NCBI GenBank assembly: GCA_017421125.1
Contig: JAFOMZ010000298.1
Coordinates: forward strand, 1-32,707
Direction of reading: 5' to 3'
DNA from: Solobacterium sp.
GTDB taxonomy: Bacteria; Bacillota_I; Bacilli_A; Erysipelotrichales; Erysipelotrichaceae
DNA length: 32,707 nucleotides
Of the stretch, positions 6,032 to 30,884 are shown piece by piece. Under the pieces are notes generated by a model. The model worked only from the letters and a program-made list of their open reading frames with translations. It was not told the origin of the DNA and made no database searches. The position numbers were made by a program, and so were the translations under genes. Position 1 is the stretch's first letter. Each line of letters begins with the position of its first letter.

Positions 6032-6747
6032 CAGCCATCCTTTCCAGATACATGAAAGAGCACTGGAGACCGCTGCTGCTGATGACAGCTATCTGGATCC
6101 TGCTGGAACTGCCTGCAGTATACGGATACCAGCCGGTATTCTTCTATCCCCTGTATTACCTGACAGGTGCCCTGTCCGGTATTACCGGAGGAGGCTTCCT
6201 GGGCATGATCTGCGGGGCTGCCGCAAGAGCGATCATCTATGTATTTTTTGAACAGATGATCATTGTCCTGTTCTTCTCAAAGCTTCCCATGAAAGAACGT
6301 CTCTCCTCATGCGGGACCATTCTCAAAGACAAGCTGATCGGCATTATCCCGTACTTCAAAACACTGAAGGGCCTGATCTCCAATGACTATACCGTGCTCT
6401 CTGCCGAGGCCGCAGGCTTCGGTACAGCACTGATCCTGTCACGTCTGCTGTCAGGTTCAGGACTGTTCAGGCATTCCTTTGTCAGTGTGGTACTGTTCAT
6501 CCAGATCACCAGGGAACTCTCAGCCCGTTCCGGTCTGATCTTTTCACTGACAAAGATGCTGGTCAGGAAGCTTGGCAGGAAAGAACCGGAAACAGATATC
6601 CTGTCCAAGTACCTCAGCACACACGCACTGGGTTATGTCATAGCACCGTTATTGCCGTTCAGGCAGTATATATACTGGATCGGTCTGGCATTCATGGTCA
6701 TTGCTGAAGTACTGAAAGTACTCTCAGCAAAGAAAACAAAACAGTAA
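6028..6747 (+). CDS. Multi-pass membrane protein of unknown function
   Basis: This 239-residue protein has about five or six hydrophobic segments, including one near residues 17-33, a Gly-rich pair at 45-85 and one at the C-terminus, separated by short basic loops such as KLPMKER and RKLGRKEP. I recognise no family motif. Its ATG overlaps the upstream stop (ATGA) and has AAGGAG 10 bases upstream. It therefore appears to be made together with the secreted protein at 4337 and may be its membrane partner; this is inferred from coupling only. A strong terminator follows. Confidence 0.8.
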   Translation: MTAILSRYMKEHWRPLLLMTAIWILLELPAVYGYQPVFFYPLYYLTGALSGITGGGFLGMICGAAARAIIYVFFEQMIIVLFFSKLPMKERLSSCGTILKDKLIGIIPYFKTLKGLISNDYTVLSAEAAGFGTALILSRLLSGSGLFRHSFVSVVLFIQITRELSARSGLIFSLTKMLVRKLGRKEPETDILSKYLSTHALGYVIAPLLPFRQYIYWIGLAFMVIAEVLKVLSAKKTKQ

Positions 6748-6753
6748 CAGCAG

Positions 6754-6785
6754 CGGATCGCTGTATCCATACAGCGGTCCGTTTT
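6754..6785 (+). terminator. Terminator of the 4337-6747 operon
   Basis: A 13-base-pair stem (6754-6766 with 6769-6781, one G-U pair) with a very short loop is followed by TTTT. Confidence 0.75.
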
Positions 6786-6786
6786 C

Positions 6787-6795
6787 TGTCATAAT
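6787..6795 (+). promoter_or_regulatory. Extended -10 promoter of tatD, probably leaderless
   Basis: TGTCATAAT is an extended -10 element. Seven bases after it is position 6802, the A of the tatD start codon. The only ribosome-site-like sequence, AGGA, ends 3 bases before the ATG, too close to work well. Confidence 0.45.
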
Positions 6796-6801
6796 AGGAA
6801 T

Positions 6802-7560
6802 ATGGAATACATTGATGCGCATTGTCATTTGGGAAATAAACAGTTCTCTGAGGACAGAGAAGAAATGATCAAAGATATGCTGGAGACAGGATTGAACAGA
6901 GTGATCCTGATCTGCTGCAGTGAACATGATTACAGAGAAGTGTCTGACCTCAGGGATACGATAACCGGTTTTAAGTTTGCCTGTGCCATCCATCCGCAGG
7001 CTCTGCGAACAACAGATACCCAGGATCGTTTTGATCGGTTCGCGGAACAGATGAAACAGATCAGACCGGATATGATCGGTGAGACAGGACTTGACTATGC
7101 ATCCCACAAACATACAAAAGAGCTTCAGAAACAGTTCTTTGAAAAGCATCTGGAGCTGGCATGTGAAATGCATCTGCCTGTTAACATCCATTCCCGCAAA
7201 GCGGTACTGGATACACAGCTGATCCTGAAGAAATATCCAGTTAAGGGAGTCCTGCACAGCTTCAGCGGATCTCCGGAAACAGCGCACGAATATATCAAAG
7301 CGGGCTGGATGATCTCCTTCGGTGCCAGTGTTCTCTTTTCCAATGCCAAAAGGCCCATGGAAGCAGTCAGGGCTGTTCCGCTGGACCATCTGATGATCGA
7401 GACAGACGCACCATACCAGAGCCCTGTGATCGGCAAACGGCATGACCCCACGGATGTCATTGCGATCTACCGTAAGATTGCAGAACTCAAGGGTGTTACG
7501 ATCGAAGAACTTTCAAAAGCCACAGCTGAAAACTATGACCGCGTATTCTCCGGATCATAA
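6802..7560 (+). CDS. tatD: TatD-family metal-dependent DNase
   Basis: This 252-residue protein matches the usual TatD length. The metal-binding motifs of the amidohydrolase-like TIM barrel are present: DAHCHLG at residues 5-11, GETGLDYA near 93, HSR near 130, HSFSG near 152 and IETDAPY near 199. TatD enzymes are cytoplasmic 3'-5' DNases/RNases linked to DNA repair and turnover. It lies between a strong terminator upstream and a bidirectional terminator downstream, so it is probably a single-gene unit. The region just before the start lacks a good ribosome site. An alternative is a paralogous YcfH-type hydrolase of unknown substrate. Confidence 0.9.
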   Translation: MEYIDAHCHLGNKQFSEDREEMIKDMLETGLNRVILICCSEHDYREVSDLRDTITGFKFACAIHPQALRTTDTQDRFDRFAEQMKQIRPDMIGETGLDYASHKHTKELQKQFFEKHLELACEMHLPVNIHSRKAVLDTQLILKKYPVKGVLHSFSGSPETAHEYIKAGWMISFGASVLFSNAKRPMEAVRAVPLDHLMIETDAPYQSPVIGKRHDPTDVIAIYRKIAELKGVTIEELSKATAENYDRVFSGS

Positions 7561-7567
7561 CGAAAAC

Positions 7568-7609
7568 AGACCTCTGTGCCGGTATTGCATCAGTCCGGTA
7601 CAAAGGTCT
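7568..7609. terminator. Bidirectional terminator between tatD and the symporter gene
   Basis: Arms 7568-7582 and 7595-7609 (AGACCT to CCGG and its complement) pair over 15 positions with one mismatch and one G-U pair, around a 12-base loop. TTTT-type tracts lie on both sides, so it can end both converging transcripts. Confidence 0.7.
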
Positions 7610-7643
7610 TTTACGTTCTGTCTTTTATAGCGTGCTGTATTGG

Positions 7644-8822
7644 TCAGGCAGTCTGTGCTGCCTTGATATTGTGCTTGTCCGCATATCCGCTCAGCATCAG
7701 TGTCAGCGCACCGTCTCCGGTAATATTGCATGCGGTACCGAACGAATCCTGCAGCGCGAATACGGCCAGCACCAGTGCTGTACCGTTGGCGTCAAAACCA
7801 AGAATACCTGTTAACAGTCCGAGTGAAGCCATGACAGTTCCTCCCGGTACACCCGGTGCACCGATGGCGAAGATCCCCAGCAGGAAACAGAACAGCAGCA
7901 TATCCCCCATTGGAGGAAGATGCCCGTACAGTACTCTGGAGATCGCCATTGTAAAGAACATTTCTGTCAGTACCGATCCGCACAGATGGATATTGGCAAA
8001 CAAGGGAATGCCGAAGTTTACAACATCTTTTCTCAGGTTTTTGCTTTTGCCGGCACTCTCCAGCGCTACGGCAAGCGTAGCAGCAGAAGACATGGTTCCT
8101 ACTGCGGTCAGATATGCCGGTCCGTAATTCTTCAGGACTTCCAGTCCGGAATGACCGGCATAAACAGTCGCTGTTCCGTACAGTACGGCAAGCCAGATAA
8201 AGTGACCGATCAGGATGATCAGGATAACGATCGCGAATGTCGGCAGCTGCCTGGTGATCGTTCCTTCCCAGGAAAGTGAAGCGAATGTGACTGCGATAAA
8301 GAACGGCAGGATCGGGATCACTGCCCGTTTCACGATCTCCAGAACGATATTCTGGAATTCCTGAAGTACATCACTGATGACCTTTGCTTTTGTCCATACT
8401 GCCGCAAGACCCAGCAGTACCGAGAATACCAGTGCCGACATGACCGGCATGATCTGGGGAATGTCCAGCTGGAAGGCAGCCTGGGGAAGCTCATGGATCG
8501 CTTCCGAAGTGCCTGCAATATTCAGATGCGGGATGATCAGGTATCCGCTGAGTGCGGACAGCAGTGAAGCCAGCAGGCTGGACATATATGCCATGATCAA
8601 GGCCACCGACAGCATCTTTGTAGCGCTGCTGCCGAGTTTTGTAATGGAAGGCGCAATGAAGCCGATAATGATCAGCGGTACACAGAATGTAATGAACTGG
8701 TTCAGTACATATTTCACAGTCACAACAATGACCATGATATCTTCAGGAACGATCAGTCCTGCGATCATTCCGATGATAATACCCAGTACAAGACGTGCCG
8801 GAAGACTCTTCAGGAACTTCAT
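7644..8822 (-). CDS. Dicarboxylate/amino acid:cation symporter (DAACS family)
   Basis: This 392-residue integral membrane protein has the eight-helix pattern of the GltP/SstT family. The re-entrant hairpin 1 serine motif appears as GTMSSAATLAVA near residue 240, hairpin 2 as GAPGVPGGTVMAS near 320, and the helix 8 substrate-binding stretch as TACNITGDG near 365. These transporters use Na+ or H+ gradients to import glutamate, aspartate, serine, threonine or related acids; the substrate cannot be fixed here. The ATG overlaps the stop of the upstream desulfidase-type gene by four bases, so the two are co-expressed. That partner suggests uptake of serine, cysteine or a similar amino acid for deamination, which is inference. 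Confidence 0.9.
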   Translation of the reverse strand: MKFLKSLPARLVLGIIIGMIAGLIVPEDIMVIVVTVKYVLNQFITFCVPLIIIGFIAPSITKLGSSATKMLSVALIMAYMSSLLASLLSALSGYLIIPHLNIAGTSEAIHELPQAAFQLDIPQIMPVMSALVFSVLLGLAAVWTKAKVISDVLQEFQNIVLEIVKRAVIPILPFFIAVTFASLSWEGTITRQLPTFAIVILIILIGHFIWLAVLYGTATVYAGHSGLEVLKNYGPAYLTAVGTMSSAATLAVALESAGKSKNLRKDVVNFGIPLFANIHLCGSVLTEMFFTMAISRVLYGHLPPMGDMLLFCFLLGIFAIGAPGVPGGTVMASLGLLTGILGFDANGTALVLAVFALQDSFGTACNITGDGALTLMLSGYADKHNIKAAQTA

Positions 8823-10111
8823 GACGCATTCCCGCTTTCTTCCGTCATCATGCGGATGATCTCAAGATCTGTCTCCCGCATGCCGACTCTTGCCAGACGG
8901 GCAAAGTTAGCAACTGAGTTCTCCACGCCCTTGACGACCAGACCGTCTCCGCCATAGAACTGCTGTCCGTTCTGATACATCTCAAATCCGAAGATACCGG
9001 TATCTACTGCTGTAGCGATCTTGGCAGCACAGGAGGACTTTGCCCCGTCACAGACAATCCCCGAAGTAATTGCCAGGGCATTGACCAGTGAATGGGCAAC
9101 GACTTCCTCATCCCCGCCATGCAGGTAGGCAATGGCTGCACCTGCTCCGGCTCCGGCGCTGACTGCGCCGCAGTATGCGGACAGGCGTCCGATACCTGCC
9201 TTGAGATGAAGCGTGATCAGATTTGATATCAGAAGCGCACGGTAAAGCTGCTCCTCTGAAGCATTCAGTCCTTTTGCATAGGTAATAACAGGCAGTGACG
9301 CAGTCAGTCCCTGATTGCCGCTGCCTGAGCAGATCACAACAGGCAGTTCACAGCCGTTCATTCTGGCGTCTGAACCGGCAGCCGCATATGCTTTTGCGTG
9401 TGTCTTCAGATCGTTTCCTGTCTTCAGCAGCACCTTGCCGATATTTGCGCCATAGTCTTTATTCATGCCTGCTTCACTGATAGCGGTATTCTGGGAGATC
9501 TGCCGATCCAGTATTTCCTTTACATCAGCTAAATCGCATGTGCAGGCAAAGTCATAAATGCCTGATACGCTTAACAGTGAATAATCCGGTACATCCTTTT
9601 CTTCAGAAGTGATATCCCCATCCTTCTGCAGAAGCACTTCCCCGTTCTTTTCGATCAGGATAATGTTGGTATGCTCATTGGCTATCCGTACCTTTACATA
9701 GGAGTCTCCGACACTGACCGTAACGATCATATCCAGCAGATAGTCTGACGTAAGAGGCTTCACTTCGATCTCAGTCTGTTCCATGTAAGTACCGAGGCGT
9801 TCTTTATCCTCTTCAGAGACATGTGAAATGACTTCCAGTCCGGCAGTCTCATCACCGGCAAGCACGCCGATGCATGCGGCTGCTGCAATACCTCTTCTTT
9901 GACCGGTATTGGGAACAACAACGCTTTTCACGTTTTTAATGATATTGCCGCTGGCTTCGACCTTGATCTTTTCAGGCAGACAGCCAAGCGCGGAACGGGC
10001 AGAGGCGGCACAGTAAGCTAAAGCAATAGGCTCTGTACAGCCCATAGCGCTGATCAGCTCACGCCGCAGGATCTCGAGATAAGTCTGGTAGACTTTGTCA
10101 TTCCGGTTCAT
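8819..10111 (-). CDS. cyuA: L-cysteine desulfidase / Fe-S serine dehydratase-alpha-like protein (CyuA/YhaM, UPF0597 family)
   Basis: This 430-residue protein has the family's usual length. It begins with the signature SAMGCTEPIALAY (Cys near residue 24) and has YCGAVSAGAGAG near 315 and CDGAKSSC near 355, supplying cysteines thought to hold a [4Fe-4S] cluster. Characterised relatives split L-cysteine to pyruvate, ammonia and sulfide; the fold is shared with iron-sulfur L-serine dehydratase. The enzyme is cytoplasmic and oxygen-sensitive, which fits an anaerobe. It overlaps the downstream symporter gene by four bases, making an import-and-catabolise operon. The ribosome site is weak (GGGGTG). 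The gene symbol rests on family membership; serine or another beta-substituted amino acid could be the true substrate. Confidence 0.85.
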   Translation of the reverse strand: MNRNDKVYQTYLEILRRELISAMGCTEPIALAYCAASARSALGCLPEKIKVEASGNIIKNVKSVVVPNTGQRRGIAAAACIGVLAGDETAGLEVISHVSEEDKERLGTYMEQTEIEVKPLTSDYLLDMIVTVSVGDSYVKVRIANEHTNIILIEKNGEVLLQKDGDITSEEKDVPDYSLLSVSGIYDFACTCDLADVKEILDRQISQNTAISEAGMNKDYGANIGKVLLKTGNDLKTHAKAYAAAGSDARMNGCELPVVICSGSGNQGLTASLPVITYAKGLNASEEQLYRALLISNLITLHLKAGIGRLSAYCGAVSAGAGAGAAIAYLHGGDEEVVAHSLVNALAITSGIVCDGAKSSCAAKIATAVDTGIFGFEMYQNGQQFYGGDGLVVKGVENSVANFARLARVGMRETDLEIIRMMTEESGNAS

Positions 10112-10231
10112 AAAACACCCCGCTTTCGGAATCCTGCATATTTAAGAAATAAAATGAAAGTTTGTACAGAATATTTATACCATTCCTGCTGTATTTAATG
10201 AATACGGTACTGTTTCAACTGATAAAAATAA

Positions 10232-10271
10232 ACGGAAAAAGAAATCAGGCTCCCCGGTCTCCGGAAAGCCT
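10232..10271 (-). terminator. Terminator after the TldE-type gene
   Basis: AGGCT and CCGG arms (10247-10256 with 10261-10271, small internal bulge) form a hairpin just after the stop at 10280. On the minus strand it is followed by a T-rich stretch ending TTTTT. Confidence 0.65.
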
Positions 10272-10279
10272 GTTCATTA

Positions 10280-11572
10280 TCAATGCAGCTTCAGCTGATC
10301 AAAGTACATGTACTTCGGTCCCTTGAATGACATTCTGCCTTTCGCACTGACAGACGCTGTCTCTTCAGAGAACCTTGCAGTATTCACTGCTTCATAGATG
10401 TTTCCGCTGACAGAGAAGCCTGTTACAGGAGTTACCTTGTCTCCTTCCACCAGCAGACCCAGACGCACTTCTCCTCCGAAGTAGCCGCTGGAAGATTCCA
10501 GCTGCGGTGCAGAAAAGTTCATCAGGTACAATACCGGTCTCTTGAGATCTTCCTCAGAGATCACCGGATAGTTCTGTACACAGACGACCGGATAAGAACC
10601 GGTAATATGTTCTTCCTTCAGGTAGTAGCCGAAACGCTGGTCACCCCAGAAAGCAGAAGCCCTGCCCTGGTCAATGACCTTCGTATCCTTCAGAACGATA
10701 CCGTTAGGATCTACAGGTGAAGAACCGCAGATGCCTTCTTCCTGTCCTTTCAGGATCATGTCAAACGGTACAGCGGAGATCTGATCGGACAGTTTGCTGT
10801 GGCTCATCTTGTAGTACTGCCTGCTGTAGGACAGTTCCTGAGCAAAATTCGTCATGATGTTTCTGAGCATGTCACCCTGTACTGCCACCAGGCAGTTTTC
10901 AGGGACCGTGACATCTTCCAGCTTCAACGCTTCATACCTGTAGCGGACATTGGACAATGCCGTACCGACTGTTTCGGTAAATTCAGCAGGATCGGTAATG
11001 TCCGCGTATCTGCTGAAATACAGTTCCACATCTTCCTTCTCACCGTCATAGCTTGGGATCGTCTCACAGAATACGGAATACGTATCATAACTGTGATCGA
11101 TGCCGCTGCTGTTGAGGAAACGGATGGTATTGTGGTCCGCAAAGATCTCCGTTGCGTTCAGCTGGGCATCACTGCCTGCCTGTGCCGCGAATACGGCATC
11201 TGCCGTATTCCTGGCGATCAGGGACAGGTCACATGTACTGTCTGAAACGGTATGGATGTTCTCTGTCTTTTCTGCCAGAGGGTAATACGGATTAGCTGCC
11301 TGACCTGCTTTGCGGACTGCGGCCTTCAGTTTTTCTGTTACGGTATCACGGTCATCCGCGGAAGTAATCACCACTGAGGAAGAACCTCTCTGTCCTTCTG
11401 AGTCTGTATAGACCACTGCCACTGTTTCTTCAGCATTCACGCATCTGTTTGTCTCCAGTTCTTCCATGACATAGAAGAACTGATATGATTCATTGACCGT
11501 ATTCCTGATCTCATAAGCACTGATGTCTTTGTTATTTTCGATCAGTTTTTTCAATTCATTGATCGTCATCAT
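10280..11572 (-). CDS. pmbA: TldE/PmbA-family metalloprotease subunit
   Basis: This 430-residue protein resembles PmbA/TldE: an N-terminal alpha/beta domain (residues 1-200) and a C-terminal beta-rich domain with FWGDQRFGYY, CSSPVDPNGIVLKDTKVI and a late LGLLVEG stretch. It lacks the HExxxH metal site, which lies in the partner TldD. In Escherichia coli the TldD/TldE heterodimer degrades unfolded peptides and matures microcin B17 and CcdA. The ATG overlaps the upstream tldD stop by four bases, so both subunits are made together. No precursor peptide gene is visible nearby, so a general peptide-processing role is the safer guess. The sequence is divergent, hence less than full confidence in the name. 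Confidence 0.85.
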   Translation of the reverse strand: MMTINELKKLIENNKDISAYEIRNTVNESYQFFYVMEELETNRCVNAEETVAVVYTDSEGQRGSSSVVITSADDRDTVTEKLKAAVRKAGQAANPYYPLAEKTENIHTVSDSTCDLSLIARNTADAVFAAQAGSDAQLNATEIFADHNTIRFLNSSGIDHSYDTYSVFCETIPSYDGEKEDVELYFSRYADITDPAEFTETVGTALSNVRYRYEALKLEDVTVPENCLVAVQGDMLRNIMTNFAQELSYSRQYYKMSHSKLSDQISAVPFDMILKGQEEGICGSSPVDPNGIVLKDTKVIDQGRASAFWGDQRFGYYLKEEHITGSYPVVCVQNYPVISEEDLKRPVLYLMNFSAPQLESSSGYFGGEVRLGLLVEGDKVTPVTGFSVSGNIYEAVNTARFSEETASVSAKGRMSFKGPKYMYFDQLKLH

Positions 11573-12954
11573 CCCAGTTTCGCCCTCGCTTTCATAAACG
11601 GACCGCCGTCAGACACAAAAACCCATTCCTTATGTCCCTTGCCGCAGCCGCCTGATCCAATGATCTTATATTCATCGGATACCATGGAAATGGAATTCAG
11701 CAGGTCCAGTACGGAACCGGAAATGACAACAGGAGCGATGATCTTTCCGGTCAGCTCTCCGTCCTTGATCTCCAGACCGTATTCTGCCGTGCACTGGATC
11801 TGCCAGTTCTTGGGATCCTCCATGCCGTTATTCGTATTGCAGAGATAATAACCGTGCTTGATGGAACGGAACATGTCTTCTACCTTGTCTTTGCCCGGTG
11901 AGAAGAATGTATTCGTCATACGGGAATAGGACTTGCGCTGGTATGATTCACGTCTGCCATTTCCGCTCGGTTTCTGTCCGAGTTCCAGCGCAGACAGCGC
12001 GTCACTGATTCCCCGCTTCAGGATACCGTCTTCAATGATGTGCGTATCCTGTGCCAGGACACCGTCATCATCGAAGAAATAGGATGCGGCAGACAGGACT
12101 GCACCTGCACCGTCATGCATGTTCAGCAGTGTACTGCCGACCTGCTTGTTGACATAGTTCGCGGACTTTGCCCTGTGCTTGACGACCATATCCTGCTCAA
12201 CACCATGACCGAATGCCTCATGGCAGATCAGACCGCTGATCGTCGGGTCAGTAATGACGTCATACACACCCGGTTCTACCGGCGTTGCCTTCAGAAGACG
12301 CAGAACAAGATCTGCTTCCGCGTCTTTCCGCTGATCCAGTTCATCCAGTGCCTTGCGGCTGTCGGCTTCACCTTCCACAGTGTAGTGCTGCTGGATGACA
12401 TCTCCCTCCCTTGCCGACAGCATCAGCATCGCATTGACCCATTCATAGTGCTGGTCCAGTACTTTCTTCCCGGACACAAAGATCTTGGAAACGGAACGTT
12501 TGCGGTACATTGCCTGCGCATTGATGATGCGCTCATCCTTCTGCTCGCAATACGTACGGATCGCCTTCAGCTGCTCCATGATCTCTTCATCGCTCATAGG
12601 ATGCGCGTCCTCACGTACAAAGGACTTTACCATCTCCTCTTCTTCCAGCACCGGTGCTTTGACAAACGGCTGCTTCATTTCAGGAAGTTTCACAGACGCA
12701 ATGACTTTCTCCGGAGACAGTCCCCGGATCTCATCAGTCGAATACTCGCTGTAATGCGTTCCGTCAAACAGACGGATGACAAAACCGCACTCATTATCAA
12801 TGTCATCGGCTGCGCTCATGCGTGTCGAAGAAATGATCTGTTTTGTCCTTGTATAAGAACCAAGCACGGATACATACTCAAATGTTTTCCGGAGTTCCTT
12901 TACCAGGACTTCCGCATCCGTGATGCGTTCTTTCAGAAATTTCTCAAGTGCCAT
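11569..12954 (-). CDS. tldD: TldD-family zinc metalloprotease subunit
   Basis: This 461-residue protein carries the TldD active site ICHEAFGHGVEQDMV near residue 235 (HExxxH), with a Gly-rich C-terminal region (GSGGCGKGHKEWVFVSDGG). TldD pairs with the product of the overlapping downstream gene to form a chamber-like peptidase that threads unfolded peptides. The start at 12954 is chosen because GGAGGA lies 7 bases upstream and the homologous N-terminus begins MALEKFLKE; an in-frame start at 13038 would place 28 extra residues across a terminator and a promoter. A TATAAT box lies 19 bases upstream. Anaerobic Firmicutes often carry several TldD/TldE pairs; whether this one matures a specific peptide is unknown. 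Confidence 0.92.
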   Translation of the reverse strand: MALEKFLKERITDAEVLVKELRKTFEYVSVLGSYTRTKQIISSTRMSAADDIDNECGFVIRLFDGTHYSEYSTDEIRGLSPEKVIASVKLPEMKQPFVKAPVLEEEEMVKSFVREDAHPMSDEEIMEQLKAIRTYCEQKDERIINAQAMYRKRSVSKIFVSGKKVLDQHYEWVNAMLMLSAREGDVIQQHYTVEGEADSRKALDELDQRKDAEADLVLRLLKATPVEPGVYDVITDPTISGLICHEAFGHGVEQDMVVKHRAKSANYVNKQVGSTLLNMHDGAGAVLSAASYFFDDDGVLAQDTHIIEDGILKRGISDALSALELGQKPSGNGRRESYQRKSYSRMTNTFFSPGKDKVEDMFRSIKHGYYLCNTNNGMEDPKNWQIQCTAEYGLEIKDGELTGKIIAPVVISGSVLDLLNSISMVSDEYKIIGSGGCGKGHKEWVFVSDGGPFMKARAKLG

Positions 12955-12972
12955 AATTTTCCTCCGTTCTCC

Positions 12973-12978
12973 ATTATA
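12973..12978 (-). promoter_or_regulatory. -10 box of the tldD-pmbA operon
   Basis: A perfect TATAAT on the minus strand ends 18 bases before the tldD start and lies downstream of the preceding operon's terminator. The -35 (TTCTGA at 17-base spacing) is weak. Confidence 0.5.
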
Positions 12979-12998
12979 TACGACTGAACGCACATTCA

Positions 12999-13029
12999 GA
13001 AAAATAACGGTACGGGCTGCCCGTACCGT
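12999..13029 (-). terminator. Terminator of the GH4-sulfatase operon
   Basis: A perfect 10-base-pair stem, ACGGTACGGG (13007-13016) with its complement (13020-13029) and a 3-base loop, is followed on the minus strand by TATTTTT. Confidence 0.85.
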
Positions 13030-13038
13030 CATAGTCAC

Positions 13039-14571
13039 TCAAATACGTTTGTCGATGGTCCTGGGAACGACATCACATGTTTCGATCATCCGTTCCAGCA
13101 GGATGTTCTTCATATCCTGGATGATCCCGGCATATTCCGGATCATCTGCCAGGTTCTCCCGTTCTTCCGGATCATTCTTCAGGTCATACAGTTCATCCTG
13201 TTCATAATAACGGAAGACATATTTGAAGTTATGATCCCTCAGCATGACCGCCTTGGTATGTTCGGGGATCCTGGTCTGTACGCTCGTCCTTGCCCACCAG
13301 AGGGTGTCAGGCGAATGATTGTCATCCTCGCACTGCTTTTCTGTTTCCCTTCTGCCGCCTTCACACAGTACCGTATCACGATGTTCTTCATCACAGGCAA
13401 ACAGGTGGACAAGCGATCTGCCGAACTCATCTTCGGAAAGTTCAAAACCTGCGATCTCAGCAACAGTTGCCGGAATGTCCAGAAGCTCTGCCAGTGCCCT
13501 TCTCTTACCCGGTTTTACCTCATACCTCTTCGGAGGCTTGATGACCAGCGGGACTTTGCTGAGGCAGTCTTCGAATGTGTTCTGGTTGATCTCGGTGATC
13601 TCGTAATCCCCTGCATAGTCGCCATGATCTGAGTACATGAAGACCAGTGTGTCTTCATAGCGTTTTGTATCCTTCAGGGCATCCATGACCTTACCGAAGT
13701 TCTCATCAACATGTCCAATCATTGCATGATATGTCTTCTTCAGAGAAAACAGTTCCTCATCGCTCCACTGATACAGTCGGTGGTTCTCACGGATGCCTTC
13801 CAGGATCGAAGCCTTCCTTGCCCTCTGCTCATCATTCAGGCGGATCGCCGGTCTGACATATTCGTCGTGCACCCGCTCATAGTCTTCCGGGAATGCCGCA
13901 TACCATGGATGCGGGCATACCAGGGAAAGATACATGCAGAGCGGCTGTTCACCCTTATAGTTTCTCAGGTAATTAACCGCATCCGCGATCTGCGCGTCTT
14001 CCGCCCCGAGGCTTCCTGCCGCAAGTGGATTGTCACGGGATACTTCTCCCTGGAAGATCGCATAGTAATACTTACTGTCCGGTTCTTTCCGGGCAGCCTC
14101 CTTCATTGCGGCTGCTTCGGCAGCCTGTGCCTGTGTATAGGCATTCAGGATCGGTGTATAGCCTTCCGGGAGTGCCTGTCCTTTGATCTTTGCGTTCATT
14201 TCCTTATAGGCATCACTGCGATAGTCACAGTATTCCGACAGCGGTACATCTTCCCGGAATACATCGTTCTTTCCGCCGAAGTAGATATGGTATCCCTGCT
14301 TCTTCAGTTCCCTGAGCAGGTTCAGGTCATCCGGTCCCTGCAGATGGTGCATGGTGCGGAATCCTCCGGTATGCGGGTACCTGCCGCTCAGGAAGCTGCA
14401 CCTGCTTGGAACACAGACAGGATTCTGGCAGAACGCGTTGTCAATGGAAATGCCGTCATTCAGCGCAACAGCGTCGATATTCTCCGTCTGAACTGCTTTG
14501 TTTCCGTTTACCGACAGCGCATCGCTGCGGAAATGGTCGGAAATAAACATCAGGATATCAGGTCTCTTCAT
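13039..14571 (-). CDS. Type I sulfatase (formylglycine-dependent), cytoplasmic
   Basis: This 510-residue protein of the alkaline phosphatase superfamily begins at its first metal-binding motif (ILMFISDHFRSD, residues 6-17). It carries the sulfatase signature CVPSRCSFLSGRYPH near residue 53, whose Cys must be oxidised to formylglycine by a separate enzyme that is not in this window. VFMYSDHGD near residue 315 supplies further metal ligands. There is no signal peptide, so it should act inside the cell. Its start lies 3 bases after the stop of the GH4 gene, with AGGTGAGAT as ribosome site, so the two are one operon. This suggests removal of sulfate from an imported glycoside or its phosphorylated form. 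A phosphonate or phosphate-ester hydrolase is the alternative, as the superfamily is promiscuous. Confidence 0.9.
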   Translation of the reverse strand: MKRPDILMFISDHFRSDALSVNGNKAVQTENIDAVALNDGISIDNAFCQNPVCVPSRCSFLSGRYPHTGGFRTMHHLQGPDDLNLLRELKKQGYHIYFGGKNDVFREDVPLSEYCDYRSDAYKEMNAKIKGQALPEGYTPILNAYTQAQAAEAAAMKEAARKEPDSKYYYAIFQGEVSRDNPLAAGSLGAEDAQIADAVNYLRNYKGEQPLCMYLSLVCPHPWYAAFPEDYERVHDEYVRPAIRLNDEQRARKASILEGIRENHRLYQWSDEELFSLKKTYHAMIGHVDENFGKVMDALKDTKRYEDTLVFMYSDHGDYAGDYEITEINQNTFEDCLSKVPLVIKPPKRYEVKPGKRRALAELLDIPATVAEIAGFELSEDEFGRSLVHLFACDEEHRDTVLCEGGRRETEKQCEDDNHSPDTLWWARTSVQTRIPEHTKAVMLRDHNFKYVFRYYEQDELYDLKNDPEERENLADDPEYAGIIQDMKNILLERMIETCDVVPRTIDKRI

Positions 14572-14574
14572 ATC

Positions 14575-15891
14575 TCACCTGAAGAACTGAGGCAGGAACT
14601 CTTTATGTGCCTCCAGCATTTCATCAAGGATCAGTTTTGCCTTATGTTCCGACTGTACCAGCGGATTGATCGTCATTGCCAGCAGCGCGTCATCATAATT
14701 CCCGCTGAGAGCCACATCGGTCGTCAGGATCTCAAATGCCTTCAGCTGCAGGATCAGTCCCACTGCCTGCAGAGGCAGCGGTCCGACATGGAGCGGTACC
14801 GGTCCGTCCTTGGTAATCACACAGCTCACCTCAACAGCCACGTCTCCGGGCAGGTTGTCAATGGCACCGCGGTTCAGTGTATCCACGACCTGGACATCCC
14901 CGGTATCGTTATAGATCGAACAGATCAGATTGCATGCTGCATCAGAGTACAGTGCTCCTCCCCTGAGTTCCAGTTCCTTCGGTTTCTCACAAAGCTGGGG
15001 ATCACTGTATTTGCGGAACAGTTCCTTCTCCACTTCCTTAACGACTCTTGCCCGGTTCCTGCCTGCTGCCGCATCCTGCTTCAGGTGCTCCAGCATCTCC
15101 GGCTTCATGTAATAGTAACGGCAGTAATCGATGCCGAAATATCCCATGCCTCTCAGGAAATGCTCAGACCACGGAATATTCGTAATATTCTTCAGCGTAT
15201 CTTTGTGCTTCTGCTCAATGATCTTTTCGATCAGTTCCTTGTTTTTGTTTTCCCCATTCACATTGACATCCAGCGCAAATACCATGTGATTGAGTCCGCC
15301 GAATTTTGTCTCCAGCACATCTGTTTCACTCAGGCCAAGGTAATCGCGGATGTTTTTGATCATGTTCACCGGTCCGTTGCAAAGACCGACGAATCTCTTC
15401 CAGCCGGTATGACGGAAGACAGCTTCCGCATTGATGCCGCTGGGATTGGTAAAGGAAATGATCCAGGCATCCGGACACAGCTCTTCACAGTCACGGATGA
15501 TGTCAAAGATCACAGGTATCGTCCTGAGTGCCTTGAACATCCCGCCGGGTCCGTTTGTTTCCTGACCGATCACATCATACTTGATGGGGATCAGTTCATC
15601 CTTGTCCCTGGCATCCAGTCCGCCGACACGGAACTGGGTGGTCACAAAGTCAGCGTCCTTCAGTGCTTCCCTGCGGTTCAATGTCGCATGTACTTCAACA
15701 TCCAGACCTGCTTTTCTGAACATCCGCTCAGTCAGTCCGGTGATGATATCGAGCTTCTCTCTGCCTGCTTCTACGTCTACAAGCCATAATTCGCTCAGTG
15801 GAAACTGTTCATACCGTTTGATGAATCCTTCCACCAGTTCAGGGGTATAGCTGCTTCCCCCGCCGATCGTTACTACCTTCAGTTTTCTCAT
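14575..15891 (-). CDS. GH4 family 6-phospho-beta-glucosidase
   Basis: This 438-residue protein has the GH4 NAD-binding start KLKVVTIGGGSSYTPELVEG (residues 3-22), QFRVGGLDAR near 85, IGQETNGPGG near 105, FTNPSG near 140, and the metal-site motifs GLCNGPVN near 165 and GLNHMVFALDV near 195. GH4 enzymes cleave by an NAD+- and Mn2+-dependent oxidation-elimination mechanism, and a Cys-Asn-x-Pro motif is typical of members acting on 6-phospho-beta-glucosides delivered by a PTS. The start at 15891 has GGAGGAAGT directly upstream; an in-frame TTG at 15915 also follows a GGAGGAAA and would add 8 residues. It is the first gene of an operon with the sulfatase, and a glucoside-type PTS permease lies about 2 kb away on the other strand. 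Confidence 0.9.
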   Translation of the reverse strand: MRKLKVVTIGGGSSYTPELVEGFIKRYEQFPLSELWLVDVEAGREKLDIITGLTERMFRKAGLDVEVHATLNRREALKDADFVTTQFRVGGLDARDKDELIPIKYDVIGQETNGPGGMFKALRTIPVIFDIIRDCEELCPDAWIISFTNPSGINAEAVFRHTGWKRFVGLCNGPVNMIKNIRDYLGLSETDVLETKFGGLNHMVFALDVNVNGENKNKELIEKIIEQKHKDTLKNITNIPWSEHFLRGMGYFGIDYCRYYYMKPEMLEHLKQDAAAGRNRARVVKEVEKELFRKYSDPQLCEKPKELELRGGALYSDAACNLICSIYNDTGDVQVVDTLNRGAIDNLPGDVAVEVSCVITKDGPVPLHVGPLPLQAVGLILQLKAFEILTTDVALSGNYDDALLAMTINPLVQSEHKAKLILDEMLEAHKEFLPQFFR

Positions 15892-15924: not shown

Positions 15925-15949
15925 TTTCCTCCGGAACTGCCCGAGGAAA
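15925..15949 (-). promoter_or_regulatory. Leader inverted repeat upstream of the GH4 gene
   Basis: TTTCCTC (15925-15931) and GAGGAAA (15943-15949) are perfect 7-base arms. On the minus strand the second arm to be transcribed forms an extra GGAGGAAA. It could be a leader hairpin or an operator; the role is unknown. The rest of 15950-16067 shows no clear promoter. Confidence 0.3.
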
Positions 15950-16067: not shown

Positions 16068-16095
16068 CAAAAACCGCAGAAACTTCATCCTGCGG
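16068..16095 (-). terminator. Terminator after the YczE-type gene
   Basis: CCGCAG (16074-16079) pairs with CTGCGG (16090-16095); on the minus strand TTTTTG follows. It lies 25 bases after the stop codon at 16121. Confidence 0.65.
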
Positions 16096-16120
16096 CAAAA
16101 GTACTGTATCTGTCTGCTGT

Positions 16121-16937: not shown

Positions 16938-17834
16938 CTAATTTTTCTTGATGTATTCCATGACTGTCCTGAGAAATGCTTTTGCGGCAACACTCAGCGG
17001 ATACGTGGAATCATAGATCATGCGGATATTGCGTCTCTGGATCATTTCATCCAGATCCGGTGAAAATGTTTTTCCGGACTCTATGGATTCTTCCGCAATG
17101 AAATCAGGCATAAATGTATATCCGAGGTTGTGCTCGATCATCGGCATGATCAGCGCAAAAGAATCCGTATACATATCGACTTTCATCGGCAGCCCGTTTT
17201 CCAGGAAAAACCGTTCATAAAGATTATAAGTATCATGACCGGGTGTCATGCAGATATAAGAGATACCCGAAAGATCCTGCAAAGAACGGTAAGACGTTCC
17301 CTTCTGATAGCCTCTGCCGAGCAGCGGAACGTCCCTGAAAGAGCGGCAGATGACCTGATGGTACGGTTTCTTGATCACATGGGCAGAAGTAATAAAAGCA
17401 AAATCAGTGACTCCCTGGTTCAGCTCACGAAGAGCAGTCGAAGACGGGGTATTCTTCAGATTGATCGTGATCTTCGGATACTTTCTGTGATAGATATCCA
17501 GGACCTGGTCAACAAAACCGCGCAGTCCAATTTCGTTGGAGCAGATCATCAGATGACCGTTTTCCATACTGGACAGTTCCGTAACTGTAGAGACCCCTTT
17601 TTCAAACTGTTCACAACCAAGGGAAGCATAGCTGTACAGCTGCTGTCCTTCCGGAGTCAGGCTGACGGTATGCCTGTCACGGAAAAACAGCTTGCAGCCA
17701 AGCTGGCCTTCCAGACTGTTGATCAAACGGGTGACAGCCGGCTGGCTGGTCGACAGTTCCACGGCAGCCTGTGTAAAGCTTTTATATCTGGCCACCATGC
17801 AGAACGTTTTCAAATGTTCATAATCAATATTCAT
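16938..17834 (-). CDS. LysR-family transcriptional regulator
   Basis: This 298-residue protein has the standard LysR length. Residues 1-60 form the winged helix-turn-helix (LKTFCMVARYKSFTQAA, then TSQPAVTRLINSLE), and residues about 90-298 form the periplasmic-binding-like effector domain. LysR regulators bind T-N11-A dyads and usually activate a divergent operon in response to a small inducer while repressing themselves. It is divergent from the PTS-enoate reductase operon, with 168 bases between the two starts and a perfect dyad inside its own promoter. The inducer is unknown; a glycoside, aromatic acid or enoate linked to the divergent genes is plausible. Confidence 0.93.
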   Translation of the reverse strand: MNIDYEHLKTFCMVARYKSFTQAAVELSTSQPAVTRLINSLEGQLGCKLFFRDRHTVSLTPEGQQLYSYASLGCEQFEKGVSTVTELSSMENGHLMICSNEIGLRGFVDQVLDIYHRKYPKITINLKNTPSSTALRELNQGVTDFAFITSAHVIKKPYHQVICRSFRDVPLLGRGYQKGTSYRSLQDLSGISYICMTPGHDTYNLYERFFLENGLPMKVDMYTDSFALIMPMIEHNLGYTFMPDFIAEESIESGKTFSPDLDEMIQRRNIRMIYDSTYPLSVAAKAFLRTVMEYIKKN

Positions 17835-17857
17835 AGCTTTGACCCTTCACTGAATAG

Positions 17858-17886
17858 ATCATATCAAATTGATATAACAAAGACAA
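17858..17886 (-). promoter_or_regulatory. Promoter of the lysR gene
   Basis: TTGTCT (minus strand, 17881-17886) and TATGAT (17858-17863) are separated by exactly 17 bases, with a TG extension before the -10. The LysR dyad at 17861-17875 lies within this promoter, which would give self-repression. Confidence 0.7.
17861..17875. promoter_or_regulatory. LysR recognition dyad
   Basis: ATATCAAATTGATAT is a perfect 15-base dyad of the T-N11-A type. Its centre is about 64 bases before the predicted start of the PTS transcript, the usual place for a LysR recognition site. Confidence 0.65.
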
Positions 17887-17889
17887 TTA

Positions 17890-17925
17890 TTGATATTTTT
17901 CTTTTGTTTTATTACAAGTTATAAC
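17890..17925 (+). promoter_or_regulatory. Promoter and activation half-site of the PTS operon
   Basis: TATAAC at 17920-17925 is the likely -10; the -35 region (TTTTCT-like) is poor, as expected for an activator-dependent promoter. TTGATAT at 17890-17896 repeats half of the LysR dyad near position -39, where the activation site normally lies. Confidence 0.5.
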
Positions 17926-17960
17926 ATAGGTGTAAGCAGAAAGGTCCGAATGCTGAAGGA

Positions 17961-17987
17961 CATGCGGAATTCCGGAAACCCCGCATG
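17961..17987 (+). promoter_or_regulatory. Leader hairpin before the PTS gene
   Basis: CATGCGG (17961-17967) pairs with CCGCATG (17981-17987), ending 3 bases before the AAGGAG ribosome site at 17991-17996. There is no U tract, so it is not a terminator. It may affect translation or message stability. Confidence 0.35.
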
Positions 17988-18002
17988 CAGAAGGAGAAGT
18001 TT

Positions 18003-19364
18003 ATGGCAAGGAACTACAGCGAAACAGCAGCGAATATCATTTCCAACATCGGCGGACTGGAAAACATTGAAAGCGTTGTCCATTGTGCAACCAGACTCCG
18101 CTTCGCTCTCAAAGACAGATCCAAAGCAGATACAGATGCAGTGAAAGCAGTTGACGGTGTTCTCGGTGTCATGGATAACGGCGGTCAATATCAGGTGCTG
18201 ATCGGAACGGGTGTCGGCAATGTATTTGACGAGATCGTCAAGGCCGGCGTCCTCAGCGGCGGTACAGTTCCGGATGATGAAGAAGATGTCCGGTCAGAAA
18301 AGCTGAGTCTCACAGACAGGTTTATGAAGATGATCTCTGAGATCATGTCACCGTATATCCCGGTACTTGCGACAGCAAGTATCATCGGCGGTATCATTGC
18401 ACTGCTTTCCAACTTCGGTATTCTCAACAGCGAAGGACTGACATACCAGGCATTCTACGCAGCCGCAAATTCCGTCTTCTATTTCTTCCCGATCCTCCTG
18501 GCGTTTACTGCCGCGAAGCACTTCAGATGCAATCCTTATACAGCAGCCGTTCTCGGAGCTTCACTGGTATATCCCGATCTTGCCGGAATGCTTGCATCTG
18601 GTACAAAAGTCTCCATGTTCGGGATCAATTTCACTGCAGCTGGCTTCAGCGGAACATTTATTCCGATCCTGCTGGCTGTATGGGCAATGAGCGTCCTGGA
18701 AAAATACCTGAAGACACATCTTCCGCAGATACTGCAGTTCACTCTGATCCCCCTGTTCACCCTGGTGCTCATGGTCCCGTTAACGATCATGGTGATCGGT
18801 CCTGTATCGGCAGTTCTGGCCAATGCAATATCCGCACTGTATGGAGTACTCTTCAGACTTCCCGTGATCGGCTGTGTGATCTTCGGCGCATTCTTCATTG
18901 TCATTATCATGCTCGGCCTGCACTGGTCTGTCATTCCTGTTCAGCTGGCTGTACTTGCGGAACAGGGATATGAATACGGTCTGTCTGCCGGCGGTATGGG
19001 CAACTATGCTCTGCTTGGCGTATGTCTCGGCGCGCTGATCGCTTCAAAACAGGCTAAGGTCCGTCAGACTGCAGCATCCGCGGCATTTGTCGACGCGCTT
19101 TCCGGAATTACGGAACCAGGCCTTTACGGTATCGTTATGACTAACAAAAAGTATCTGGTCTCACTGATCGCAGGCGGTGCTGCCGGCGGTCTGGTCATCG
19201 GCCTGTTCAATGCTCCGATCGTACAGTTTGCTTTCACAGGCATCCTCTCCTTCGGCGCATATCTGACCATGCCCAAACTTCCGATCTATATCATTGCTGT
19301 TGCCGTTTCCATTCTGGTCAGCTGTCTGCTGAGCATCCTGATCACCAGGCAGTCAGAAGCATAA
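18003..19364 (+). CDS. PTS EIIBC permease, beta-glucoside/sucrose/trehalose family
   Basis: This 453-residue protein has an EIIB domain at residues 1-85 with the phosphorylated Cys in VVHCATRLRF (Cys28), and an EIIC membrane domain at about 100-453 with many hydrophobic helices and the motif GITEPGLYGIVMTNKKYL near 375. It imports a sugar and phosphorylates it, normally at C6. There is no EIIA domain, unlike BglF-type EIIBCA proteins, and no EIIA gene nearby, so a shared glucose-type EIIA is probably borrowed. The start at 18003 has AAGGAGAAG 7 bases upstream; an in-frame ATG at 17985 lies inside a hairpin. It is the first gene of an operon with the enoate reductase 15 bases downstream, under a LysR-type promoter. 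The sugar is unknown; an aryl or alkyl beta-glucoside is a reasonable guess. Confidence 0.9.
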   Translation: MARNYSETAANIISNIGGLENIESVVHCATRLRFALKDRSKADTDAVKAVDGVLGVMDNGGQYQVLIGTGVGNVFDEIVKAGVLSGGTVPDDEEDVRSEKLSLTDRFMKMISEIMSPYIPVLATASIIGGIIALLSNFGILNSEGLTYQAFYAAANSVFYFFPILLAFTAAKHFRCNPYTAAVLGASLVYPDLAGMLASGTKVSMFGINFTAAGFSGTFIPILLAVWAMSVLEKYLKTHLPQILQFTLIPLFTLVLMVPLTIMVIGPVSAVLANAISALYGVLFRLPVIGCVIFGAFFIVIIMLGLHWSVIPVQLAVLAEQGYEYGLSAGGMGNYALLGVCLGALIASKQAKVRQTAASAAFVDALSGITEPGLYGIVMTNKKYLVSLIAGGAAGGLVIGLFNAPIVQFAFTGILSFGAYLTMPKLPIYIIAVAVSILVSCLLSILITRQSEA

Positions 19365-19379
19365 GCAGCGGAGGTACTT

Positions 19380-21290
19380 ATGATGAACACTGAATATCCC
19401 AATCTCTTCACACCGCTGAAGATCAATCAGACCGTTCTGAAAAACAGGATCGTTTCTACTCCCCTTGGTATGATCGATATCAGTGAACTTCAGGGACCGG
19501 GCTATGTGATCAAGGGCAGTGTGGCGGTGGACGCTCCCAACGCAATGTGGGCAGACATTCCGTACGCGTTCTCAAGACATATGGTGGATGAAACACATGA
19601 CTGGATCATCAAAGCGCACCAAAGAGGTATGAAAGCCGGGATCGAACTGATCCACTGCGGCAATCAGGCAAGAGCTTACAACGGACCGCATGTATACGGA
19701 CCCTGCGATGGTGTCAATGATGAAGGATGGCCCGTTAAGGCTATGGACGAAGCTGATATGAAAATGGTCGCGGCTGCGTATGGCAAAGCGGCGCGTGACG
19801 CTATGATGCTGGGCTTCGACCTCATCTTCCTGCATTTTGCGCACGGCTGGCTGCCGGCAGAATTTCTTTCACCGCTGCACAATCACCGCACCGATGAATA
19901 CGGCGGACCTTTGGAAAACAGGGCAAAATTTCCGCTGCAGATCCTGCAGGCAGTACGCCGGGCAGTTGGTCCCCGCTTTCCAATCGATATGCGTATTTCC
20001 GCGGTAGAACACGTACCGGGATCGATCACCTTTGAGGACACGCTTGCATTTATCGGCATGGCCGAGAAGTACATCGATGCTGTGCAGATCTCCTGCGGAC
20101 TGGATAAGGGCTTTGGCTACAGCGGCAATGTGAAAATGAGCACCACCATCTTCGAACCGCATGAGATCAATGTGGAATACGCTGCCGCTGTAAAAAAAAC
20201 ATATCCTGAACTGATCGTAGGCGTCGTCGGCGGTATTGAGACACCTGAACGCGCAGAATCGATCCTTGTGGAAGGAAAAGCTGATCTGATCGCCATAGGC
20301 AGAGCGCTGCTGGCAGATCCGGAATGGGTATTAAAGGCACAGACCGGCAAAGCAGATCAGATTCGTCCCTGTGTACGCTGCCTTCAGTGCTACCACATTG
20401 CGACAGAATACAGAAACATCGGATGTGCAGTCAATCCCAGATTTCATCATCATGCCTATGTTCCGAAAGACAGCGAGATCATGAAAAACGATCAGCCCAG
20501 AACTGTCGTGGTAGTCGGCGGCGGTCCGGCCGGGATCTCCGCAGCCCTGGCAGCAGATAAAAAAGGAAATCATGTGATCCTTCTGGAAAAAGACTCAGCA
20601 CTGGGAGGCATGATCCGCTATATCATCAAAGAACACTATAAGGAAGACATGAGGTCGTATTACCGGTGGCTGATGGACCAGGTCAGACACTCCGGTATCG
20701 ATGTACGCCTGAACACAGAAGCCACACCGGAATATGTGAAGCGTCTGCATCCGGACTATCTGATCGTAGCTGTCGGTTCTTCCGTGAAAAACCCGCCGGT
20801 AAAAGGTCTGCATCTTCCCAGGGTGCATGACTGTCTCAGCGCGATCGCAGATCAAGAAAAACTCGGGGATCATCTCGTAGTGATCGGCGGAGGATCCATC
20901 GGAAGTGAGATCGCGCTGGGTGCTGCGGAAATGGACGGGAAAACCGTAACAGTGATCGAAATGACGGATGAGATCGCTTCTAACGCAAATATGCTGTACA
21001 GGATCTCTTTAAAACAGCACATGGACCGCTGCAGTGATCTGACTGTATATACCGGTACAGTATGTGAAGAAGTGACAGAATCATACGTTCGTGTACGCCA
21101 TGGAGAAGAACTGATCGATATCCCATATGATGATGTCATAGTGGCAAGCGGTATGGCACCGAAAACGGAACTCGCCAACAGTTTCTTCGGCATTACACCG
21201 GAAACATATATCGTCGGCGACGCTTCTTCTGTACGCCTCATCCAGGAAGCAAATCTGGAAGGGACCATGGCAGGTCTCAGAACGATATGA
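19380..21290 (+). CDS. Old-yellow-enzyme-type enoate / 2,4-dienoyl-CoA reductase-like flavoenzyme
   Basis: This 636-residue protein has the three-part layout of FadH, enoate reductases and BaiCD/BaiH: an FMN TIM barrel at residues 1-330, four cysteines for a [4Fe-4S] cluster (PCVRCLQCYH near 330 and IGCAVNP near 347), an FAD domain (VVVVGGGPAGISAAL near 378) and an NAD(P) site (VVIGGGSIGSE near 500). It should pass electrons from NAD(P)H through FAD and Fe-S to FMN and reduce an activated C=C bond in the cytoplasm. Unusually, the active-site stretch reads HFAHGWLPAEFLSP, with Trp where family members mostly have Tyr (HGYL), and an early motif reads IHCGNQA. It follows the PTS gene by 15 bases with a GGAGG site, so the substrate may be an unsaturated aglycone. 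Bile acid, steroid or amino-acid-derived enoates are alternatives. Confidence 0.88.
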   Translation: MMNTEYPNLFTPLKINQTVLKNRIVSTPLGMIDISELQGPGYVIKGSVAVDAPNAMWADIPYAFSRHMVDETHDWIIKAHQRGMKAGIELIHCGNQARAYNGPHVYGPCDGVNDEGWPVKAMDEADMKMVAAAYGKAARDAMMLGFDLIFLHFAHGWLPAEFLSPLHNHRTDEYGGPLENRAKFPLQILQAVRRAVGPRFPIDMRISAVEHVPGSITFEDTLAFIGMAEKYIDAVQISCGLDKGFGYSGNVKMSTTIFEPHEINVEYAAAVKKTYPELIVGVVGGIETPERAESILVEGKADLIAIGRALLADPEWVLKAQTGKADQIRPCVRCLQCYHIATEYRNIGCAVNPRFHHHAYVPKDSEIMKNDQPRTVVVVGGGPAGISAALAADKKGNHVILLEKDSALGGMIRYIIKEHYKEDMRSYYRWLMDQVRHSGIDVRLNTEATPEYVKRLHPDYLIVAVGSSVKNPPVKGLHLPRVHDCLSAIADQEKLGDHLVVIGGGSIGSEIALGAAEMDGKTVTVIEMTDEIASNANMLYRISLKQHMDRCSDLTVYTGTVCEEVTESYVRVRHGEELIDIPYDDVIVASGMAPKTELANSFFGITPETYIVGDASSVRLIQEANLEGTMAGLRTI

Positions 21291-30725: not shown

Positions 30726-30752
30726 AAAACCTCCGTATTCCGGTCTGTCCGG

Positions 30753-30780
30753 ATCATATTTACAATCATTATCATGATTG
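30753..30780 (-). promoter_or_regulatory. Promoter with a Fur-box-like sequence upstream of the large lipoprotein gene
   Basis: TATGAT (minus strand, 30753-30758) is a likely -10. Just upstream, TGATAATGATTGTAA (30760-30774) matches 13 of 15 positions of the Fur-type TGATAATnATTATCA. The same stretch contains the perfect dyad CAATCAT/ATGATTG (30763-30769 and 30774-30780). A repressor bound here would cover the promoter. It could also be the site of another regulator. The remaining 30781-30884 is AT-rich with no clear feature. Confidence 0.45.
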
Positions 30781-30884
30781 GTCGACATTTGTCATCCTAA
30801 TATTAGCGGAGATTTTTTCATTTCTCAATACCAAACCGGAAACACTTATGACATTTTTAAACATTTTCATATATTAAAATTAGC

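Follow-up and report, generated by a model that had tools for sequence, protein, structure and literature searches.

We analyzed a 32,707-nucleotide stretch of DNA from Solobacterium sp. (GenBank assembly GCA_017421125.1, contig JAFOMZ010000298.1; hereafter the window) and focus here on two neighboring genes, one encoding a formylglycine-type sulfatase of the alkaline phosphatase superfamily and the other a member of glycoside hydrolase family 4 (GH4). The genes form a two-gene operon bounded by two terminator-like hairpins, and the operon probably serves the catabolism of a sulfated beta-glycoside that would be imported by a phosphotransferase system (PTS), desulfated in the cytoplasm and then cleaved by the GH4 enzyme. 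The operon limits, the recurrence of the pair, the PTS genes in the operons of relatives and the maturase genes described below were all read directly from sequence and gene context.

Both genes lie on the minus strand, and the sulfatase start codon follows the GH4 stop codon after 3 bases (Table 1), as a preliminary description of this DNA had stated. The flanking hairpins make the operon tighter than was claimed there. The operon ends at an intrinsic terminator-like hairpin with a folding energy of -22.2 kcal/mol (z -4.24) and a stem-loop that is identical in all 3 Solobacterium-like genomes, that is, the window genome (G000) and two congeneric sister genomes (G050 and G029). The upstream limit is set by a second terminator-like hairpin, and an alignment revealed a similar element in 2 relatives. 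A scan of 8.2 kb for terminator-like sites found 12, compared with 5.8 expected from shuffled sequences. The GH4 start codon is preceded by a Shine-Dalgarno sequence, GGAGGAA, that is conserved in the 3 genomes. The GH4 leader also contains an inverted repeat in which, counted by eye in the alignment, 9 of 10 stem positions pair in the window and 10 of 10 in G050; G029 has nearly the same repeat. It is possibly an operator or a leader hairpin.

Table 1 Features of the sulfatase-GH4 operon and its surroundings (positions in the window).
Feature	Position	Strand	Remarks
Terminator-like hairpin, intrinsic type	13004..13032	-	Directly 3' of the sulfatase gene; closes the operon
Sulfatase gene	13039..14571	-	ATG 14571, stop 13039; 510 aa
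GH4 gene	14575..15891	-	First in operon; ATG 15891, stop 14575; 438 aa; probable 6-phospho-beta-glucosidase
Inverted repeat in GH4 leader	15925..15949	not assigned	From alignment, pairing counted by eye
Terminator-like hairpin	16073..16096	-	3' of YczE; upstream operon limit
PTS EIIBC gene	17985-19364		2 kb upstream of the pair

The sulfatase matches Pfam family PF00884 (Sulfatase) at 115.7 bits, with a cut-off of 25, and carries an intact formylglycine motif, CVPSR, at residues 53-57 (C53). It shares this family match and the CxPSR signature with the formylglycine (S1) sulfatases and differs from them in that no solved relative is close to it. Inspection by eye shows no signal peptide at its N-terminus (MKRPDILMFISDHF...), in agreement with the preliminary description. 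Residues D12, C53, P55, S56, R57, D315 and H316 are invariant in all 18 aligned members of the sulfatase clade described below. Among profiles of solved structures the best matches are an exo-2S-iota-carrageenan sulfatase (176.9 bits) and an entry named choline-sulfatase (175.9 bits), and a phosphonate monoester hydrolase scores 131.5 bits. A structure prediction from 3 near-identical sequences had a mean pLDDT of 33.4. The reading as a cytoplasmic formylglycine-type sulfatase is supported. The preliminary description had proposed looking for a formylglycine-generating enzyme (FGE) elsewhere in the genome. A PF03781 search of the window genome, an assembly of 299 contigs and 2.83 Mb that is 84.6% complete and has 12 PF00884 matches, found none, and FGE was set aside as the candidate maturase. 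The genome does encode a maturase of the anaerobic radical-SAM type (anSME), which matches TIGR03942 at 408.6 bits (cut-off 349.45); a second match, at 314.4 bits, falls below the cut-off. A radical-SAM maturase suits both an anaerobe and a cytoplasmic sulfatase.

The GH4 protein matches both Pfam domains of its family over their full length (PF02056, N-terminal, 214.7 bits; PF11975, C-terminal, 176 bits). Its best solved relatives are two 6-phospho-beta-glucosidases that align over the full length at 541-543 bits (5c3m, 542.6 bits; 1s6y, 541.2 bits), and it also resembles BglT of Thermotoga maritima (1up6/1up7; 243.8 bits for 1up7). These matches make it a probable 6-phospho-beta-glucosidase. 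It differs from the 6-phospho-beta-glucosidases of GH4 at the metal-site loop, which has the variant CNGP. As a weak lead, this variant is confined, among 35 listed GH4 genes, to those of the window, G050, G029, a genome of another genus (G092) and G242; the others have CNVP, CNLP, CNSP or, in G097, CDMP. The form of the loop, CN[x]P or CDMP, is presumably tied to GH4 specificity.

The pairing of the two genes is found beyond this genome, contrary to the possibility, raised in the preliminary description, that it occurs only here. We surveyed 272 genomes of the family, including that of the window, at E <= 1e-60 and found sulfatase relatives in 42 and GH4 relatives in 88. At E <= 1e-90, the 315 genomes of the order included 31 with a sulfatase relative, and a sample of 392 from the phylum included 8; a sample of 395 from the class, searched at 1e-50, likewise included 8. 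Of the 51 sulfatase places in the family we examined the 36 strongest. Adjacent sulfatase-GH4 pairs were identified in G000, G050, G029 and G092, with identities to the window proteins (sulfatase/GH4) of 97%/98% in G050, 94%/97% in G029 and 53%/69% in G092. The G092 operon consists of genes for an EIIC-Lac (lactose/cellobiose-family PTS), a SIS-domain protein, the GH4 enzyme and the sulfatase, with a divergent gene for an RpiR regulator. G097 has a longer run. It starts with a sulfatase (50% identity) and continues with a mannose/sorbose-family EIIABCD, a gene that matched no seed, a Gfo/Idh protein and a further sulfatase; the run also includes a GH4 enzyme that differs from the window type (CDMP motif) and an anSME. 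Among the matches listed from the open-licence PMC literature, none has a title or abstract start that names an operon of GH4 and sulfatase genes.

We next consider the sulfatases as a group. Forty-seven sulfatase genes in the fetched stretches were scored for neighbors within 6 kb, and 46 were placed in a tree, one short fragment being dropped. PTS seeds were checked by Pfam and included one EIIB-EIIC fusion; the count for ATP-binding cassette (ABC) transporters used a Pfam-confirmed permease seed and a binding-protein seed that matched no family, and the ATPase seed was not used. The tree splits into a clade of 36 sequences, including the window protein, and a clade of 10, with support of 100/100. 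PTS genes lie near 31 of the 36 members of the window's clade and near none of the 10 others (Fisher value 7e-7, uncorrected for relatedness). The window is counted as PTS-near only through the EIIBC gene in Table 1; without it the figure is 30 of 36. The larger clade also has anSME genes near 12 members, glycoside hydrolase family 1 (GH1) near 10, GH4 near 5, TauE exporters near 3 and an ABC permease or binding protein near none. In the smaller clade the counts are ABC 5, anSME 2, GH1 1, and 0 for both GH4 and TauE. Thus, the data support a tie between the whole 36-member clade and PTS genes. Residues H75, C115, H419 and E457 are conserved in this clade but largely missing from the 10-member one (H75 in 35/36 versus 2/10; H419 in 33/36 versus 0/10), which is a weak lead. 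The subclade to which the window sulfatase belongs has six members, five of them with a GH4 gene nearby, against 0 of the 40 others in the tree; this association is unlikely to be due to chance. Three of these five are congeners, so they represent three lineages rather than five events. All six genomes with subclade members have TIGR03942 matches, above the curated cut-off in four.

Two more distant genomes were examined after the tree was built. In G391 (0.87 Mb, genetic code 4), genes for PTS EIIABC, a sulfatase, GH1, TauE and an FGE-sulfatase protein stand in a row on one strand (locus L183, G391:C1:418000-436000, 5748-13244). This genome has a single FGE match and a single first-look sulfatase candidate, and the block is a candidate for a complete pathway. 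One of the two later genomes therefore agrees with the tie to PTS genes; the other, G455, cannot tell, since only about 240 bases of its contig remain upstream of the sulfatase. At another locus (L156), EIIC, sulfatase, TauE, RpiR and anSME genes occur together. It is possible, and we suggest it only tentatively, that the 36 proteins are distinct sulfatases for 6-phosphorylated, PTS-imported sulfoglycosides in the cytoplasm, with interchangeable GH1 or GH4 enzymes, TauE/SafE exporters and maturases. On this reading, H75 and H419 are candidate phosphate contacts.

Two other loci of the window genome are of note for their sulfatase genes. L099 (G000:C138, 5524-8416) holds a second pair of EIIC-Lac and sulfatase genes, with a divergent RpiR gene, on a contig that ends just after the sulfatase. 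L048 (G000:C195) has three tandem sulfatase-family genes next to genes for an ABC transporter; the tree places one of the three in the ABC-linked clade.

In the pathway that we propose, a PTS permease would import the glycoside and phosphorylate O6 of its non-reducing sugar, and a sulfatase matured in the cytoplasm by anSME would then take off the sulfate. The NAD/Mn-dependent GH4 enzyme would split the resulting 6-phospho-beta-glycoside, releasing a hexose-6-phosphate together with either an aglycone or another sugar. We infer from the gene content that sulfate is the group removed, that the steps follow this order and that a PTS is the importer in this genome. Established chemistry would constrain the substrate further. 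Because the PTS phosphorylates O6, the sulfate could not be on O6 of that sugar, and because GH4 oxidizes C3, a sulfate on O3, if there is one, would have to leave first. In the available text of PMC10628242, the GH4 mechanism consists of C3 oxidation, elimination and hydrolysis. An amino-sugar disaccharide, such as a host mucin- or keratan-type fragment, is slightly favored over an aryl or thio glucoside, because the G092 operon encodes a SIS-domain protein and ChbG genes lie next to several relatives (within 6 kb of 3 clade sulfatases and of 5 of 26 GH4 genes). This is a weak lead. The preliminary description had suggested a pathway for a sulfated glycoside with desulfation after PTS import. 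As a scheme, the predicted desulfation after import is well supported by the PTS genes that share an operon with sulfatase and GH4 genes in G092 and G097 and by the PTS-linked clade; the window's own importer was not found.

Several observations weigh against the pathway as a whole. There is no PTS gene in the window operon. The EIIBC gene upstream has no orthologue in G029 or G050 (best match 33%), both of which carry the pair, and it is absent from the examined stretch upstream of the pair in G050; we therefore rejected it as a conserved importer. The window genome has seven Lac-family EIIC matches, and among the four that were placed in an EIIC tree none, the best match included, is an orthologue of the EIIC in the G092 operon; the protein on contig C278, considered for this role, groups with another G092 EIIC. 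Five of the 36 clade members (G050, G029, G277, G172 and G167) have no PTS gene nearby, and these include both sister genomes. Nor is there one near the sulfatase in G455, which lies at a contig end. The sulfatase most similar to that of the window outside the genus (G277, 57%) is an isolated gene with neither GH4 nor PTS genes around it, and the closest GH4 gene outside the genus (G242, 71%) is accompanied by PTS EIIC and EIIB genes and by no sulfatase in the stretch examined. Finally, the analogous sulfatase from the pneumococcal island described below was negative in an assay with 4-methylumbelliferyl sulfate (PMC3283741, available text).

The unpaired genes in G277 and G242 are what one would expect if nothing but inheritance keeps the sulfatase and GH4 genes together. 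The sulfatase substrate would then enter through ABC transporters or in some other way, and the GH4 enzyme would act on ordinary cellobiose-type sugars. The lack of a transporter in the window operon is in line with this, as is the scoring of 26 GH4 genes, of which 21, some with short flanks, lack a sulfatase within 6 kb and 5 have one. However, the genes form a tight operon, and the pair recurs in a second genus, at much lower identity, with PTS genes in the same operon. We consider shared inheritance alone to be unlikely. Similarly improbable is the idea that the "sulfatase" acts as a phosphodiesterase or a phosphonate monoester hydrolase, trimming a phospho-substituted glycoside ahead of GH4. 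The protein reaches no NCBIfam equivalog cut-off, and another ester is thus possible: its best NCBIfam match, Arylsulfatase PRK13759 (NF010322), scores 165.8 bits against a cut-off of 481, choline-sulfatase TIGR03417 149.7 against 433.45 and PehA 126.6 against 900. PehA and phosphonate monoester hydrolases are among its profile and PDB matches, a further point against our reading, and its Asp-His second metal pair (D315-H316) is a pattern that we take to be typical of the phosphonate monoester hydrolase/phosphodiesterase group. Phosphonate monoester hydrolases also carry formylglycine (PMC5066984, available text), so maturation alone cannot separate the two activities. What argues for a sulfatase is that the best solved-structure matches are sulfatases and that anSME genes and TauE/SafE exporters accompany the clade, at the frequencies given above.

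A plant origin of the substrate seems more doubtful still. Here, a glucosinolate-like or aryl-glucoside sulfate from plant feed would be imported by the PTS and desulfated to a desulfo-6-phospho-thioglucoside that GH4 then cleaves. GH4 enzymes do cleave S-glycosides, by redox elimination (PMC10628242), bglA and ascB, which encode 6-phospho-beta-glucosidases, are important when E. coli O157:H7 uses sinigrin (PMC6767122), and one named relative, Solobacterium sp. RGIG2523, comes from goat jejunum. The role of sulfatases in glucosinolate use is called unclear, with the enzymes still to be identified, in the portion of PMC6767122 available. Against this explanation, the amino-sugar-linked neighbors (SIS and ChbG) point to disaccharides, and we recognized no thioglucoside-specific gene in the stretches examined, where no profile search was aimed at one.

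A sulfatase beside a PTS is already known as a kind of system, of which the GH4-partnered form is a variant. The accessory PTS island SPH1922-SPH1930 of Streptococcus pneumoniae encodes PTS-Lac EII proteins, a sulfatase, a sulfatase-modifying enzyme, a TauE exporter and a ROK regulator (PMC3302838 and PMC3283741, both 2012, in their available text), and island mutants lose fitness in mice (PMC3283741). It resembles the loci studied here in uniting a lactose/chitobiose-family PTS, a sulfatase, a maturase and TauE, most of which several of the relatives carry, and differs in that no GH4 gene is described in the available portions of either paper; the comparison with the window is one of gene content and not of sulfatase homology. 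In the same portions, the authors left open whether the PTS and the sulfatase cooperate. Streptococcal routes for hyaluronan and chondroitin likewise combine PTS import of disaccharides with cytoplasmic processing, and the locus in Proteus vulgaris carries putative genes for a sulfatase and for a PTS (PMC9067506, available text). Unlike the window, these routes use polysaccharide lyases and an unsaturated glucuronyl hydrolase instead of GH4.

During the breakdown of sulfated glycans in the gut by Bacteroides thetaiotaomicron, desulfation precedes the arrival of monomers in the cytoplasm (PMC9067506, available text). The pair, present in gut bacteria related to Solobacterium, is one branch of a larger group whose bacteria apparently import sulfated sugars by PTS and desulfate them inside the cell. 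If the tentative reading of the PTS-linked clade is right, Gram-positive and mollicute-like bacteria would have in it a general counterpart to the periplasmic sulfatase routes of Bacteroides. Desulfation in the cytoplasm after PTS import would explain how Firmicutes with smaller genomes, and a mollicute-like bacterium with code 4, could use sulfated sugars released by others. The pneumococcal island would gain a testable substrate class, and the clade's sulfatases would be predicted to fail on generic aryl sulfates because they require a 6-phosphate.

Several genes around the operon were considered as parts of the pathway and rejected. A metalloprotease-like pair, PmbA and TldD, follows directly after the closing hairpin (window 10280-12954) and lies 3' of the sulfatase in all 3 Solobacterium-like genomes. 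TldD is probably outside the operon, because its ATG stands behind its own Shine-Dalgarno sequence and after the hairpin; neither gene is near the G092 pair, and both were rejected as pathway partners. YczE, although present upstream of the pair in G050, was excluded because a terminator-like hairpin follows it, and LysR because it is absent from the examined stretch upstream of the pair in G050. A 623-aa open frame on the minus strand (window 28917-30788) has no Pfam match. In the region 16938-21290, the LysR gene is divergent from EIIBC, which is followed by a gene for a BaiCD-like FMN/FAD oxidoreductase that belongs to the OYE family and scores under the BaiCD cut-off; it is unusual for an OYE protein to accompany a beta-glucoside-type PTS.

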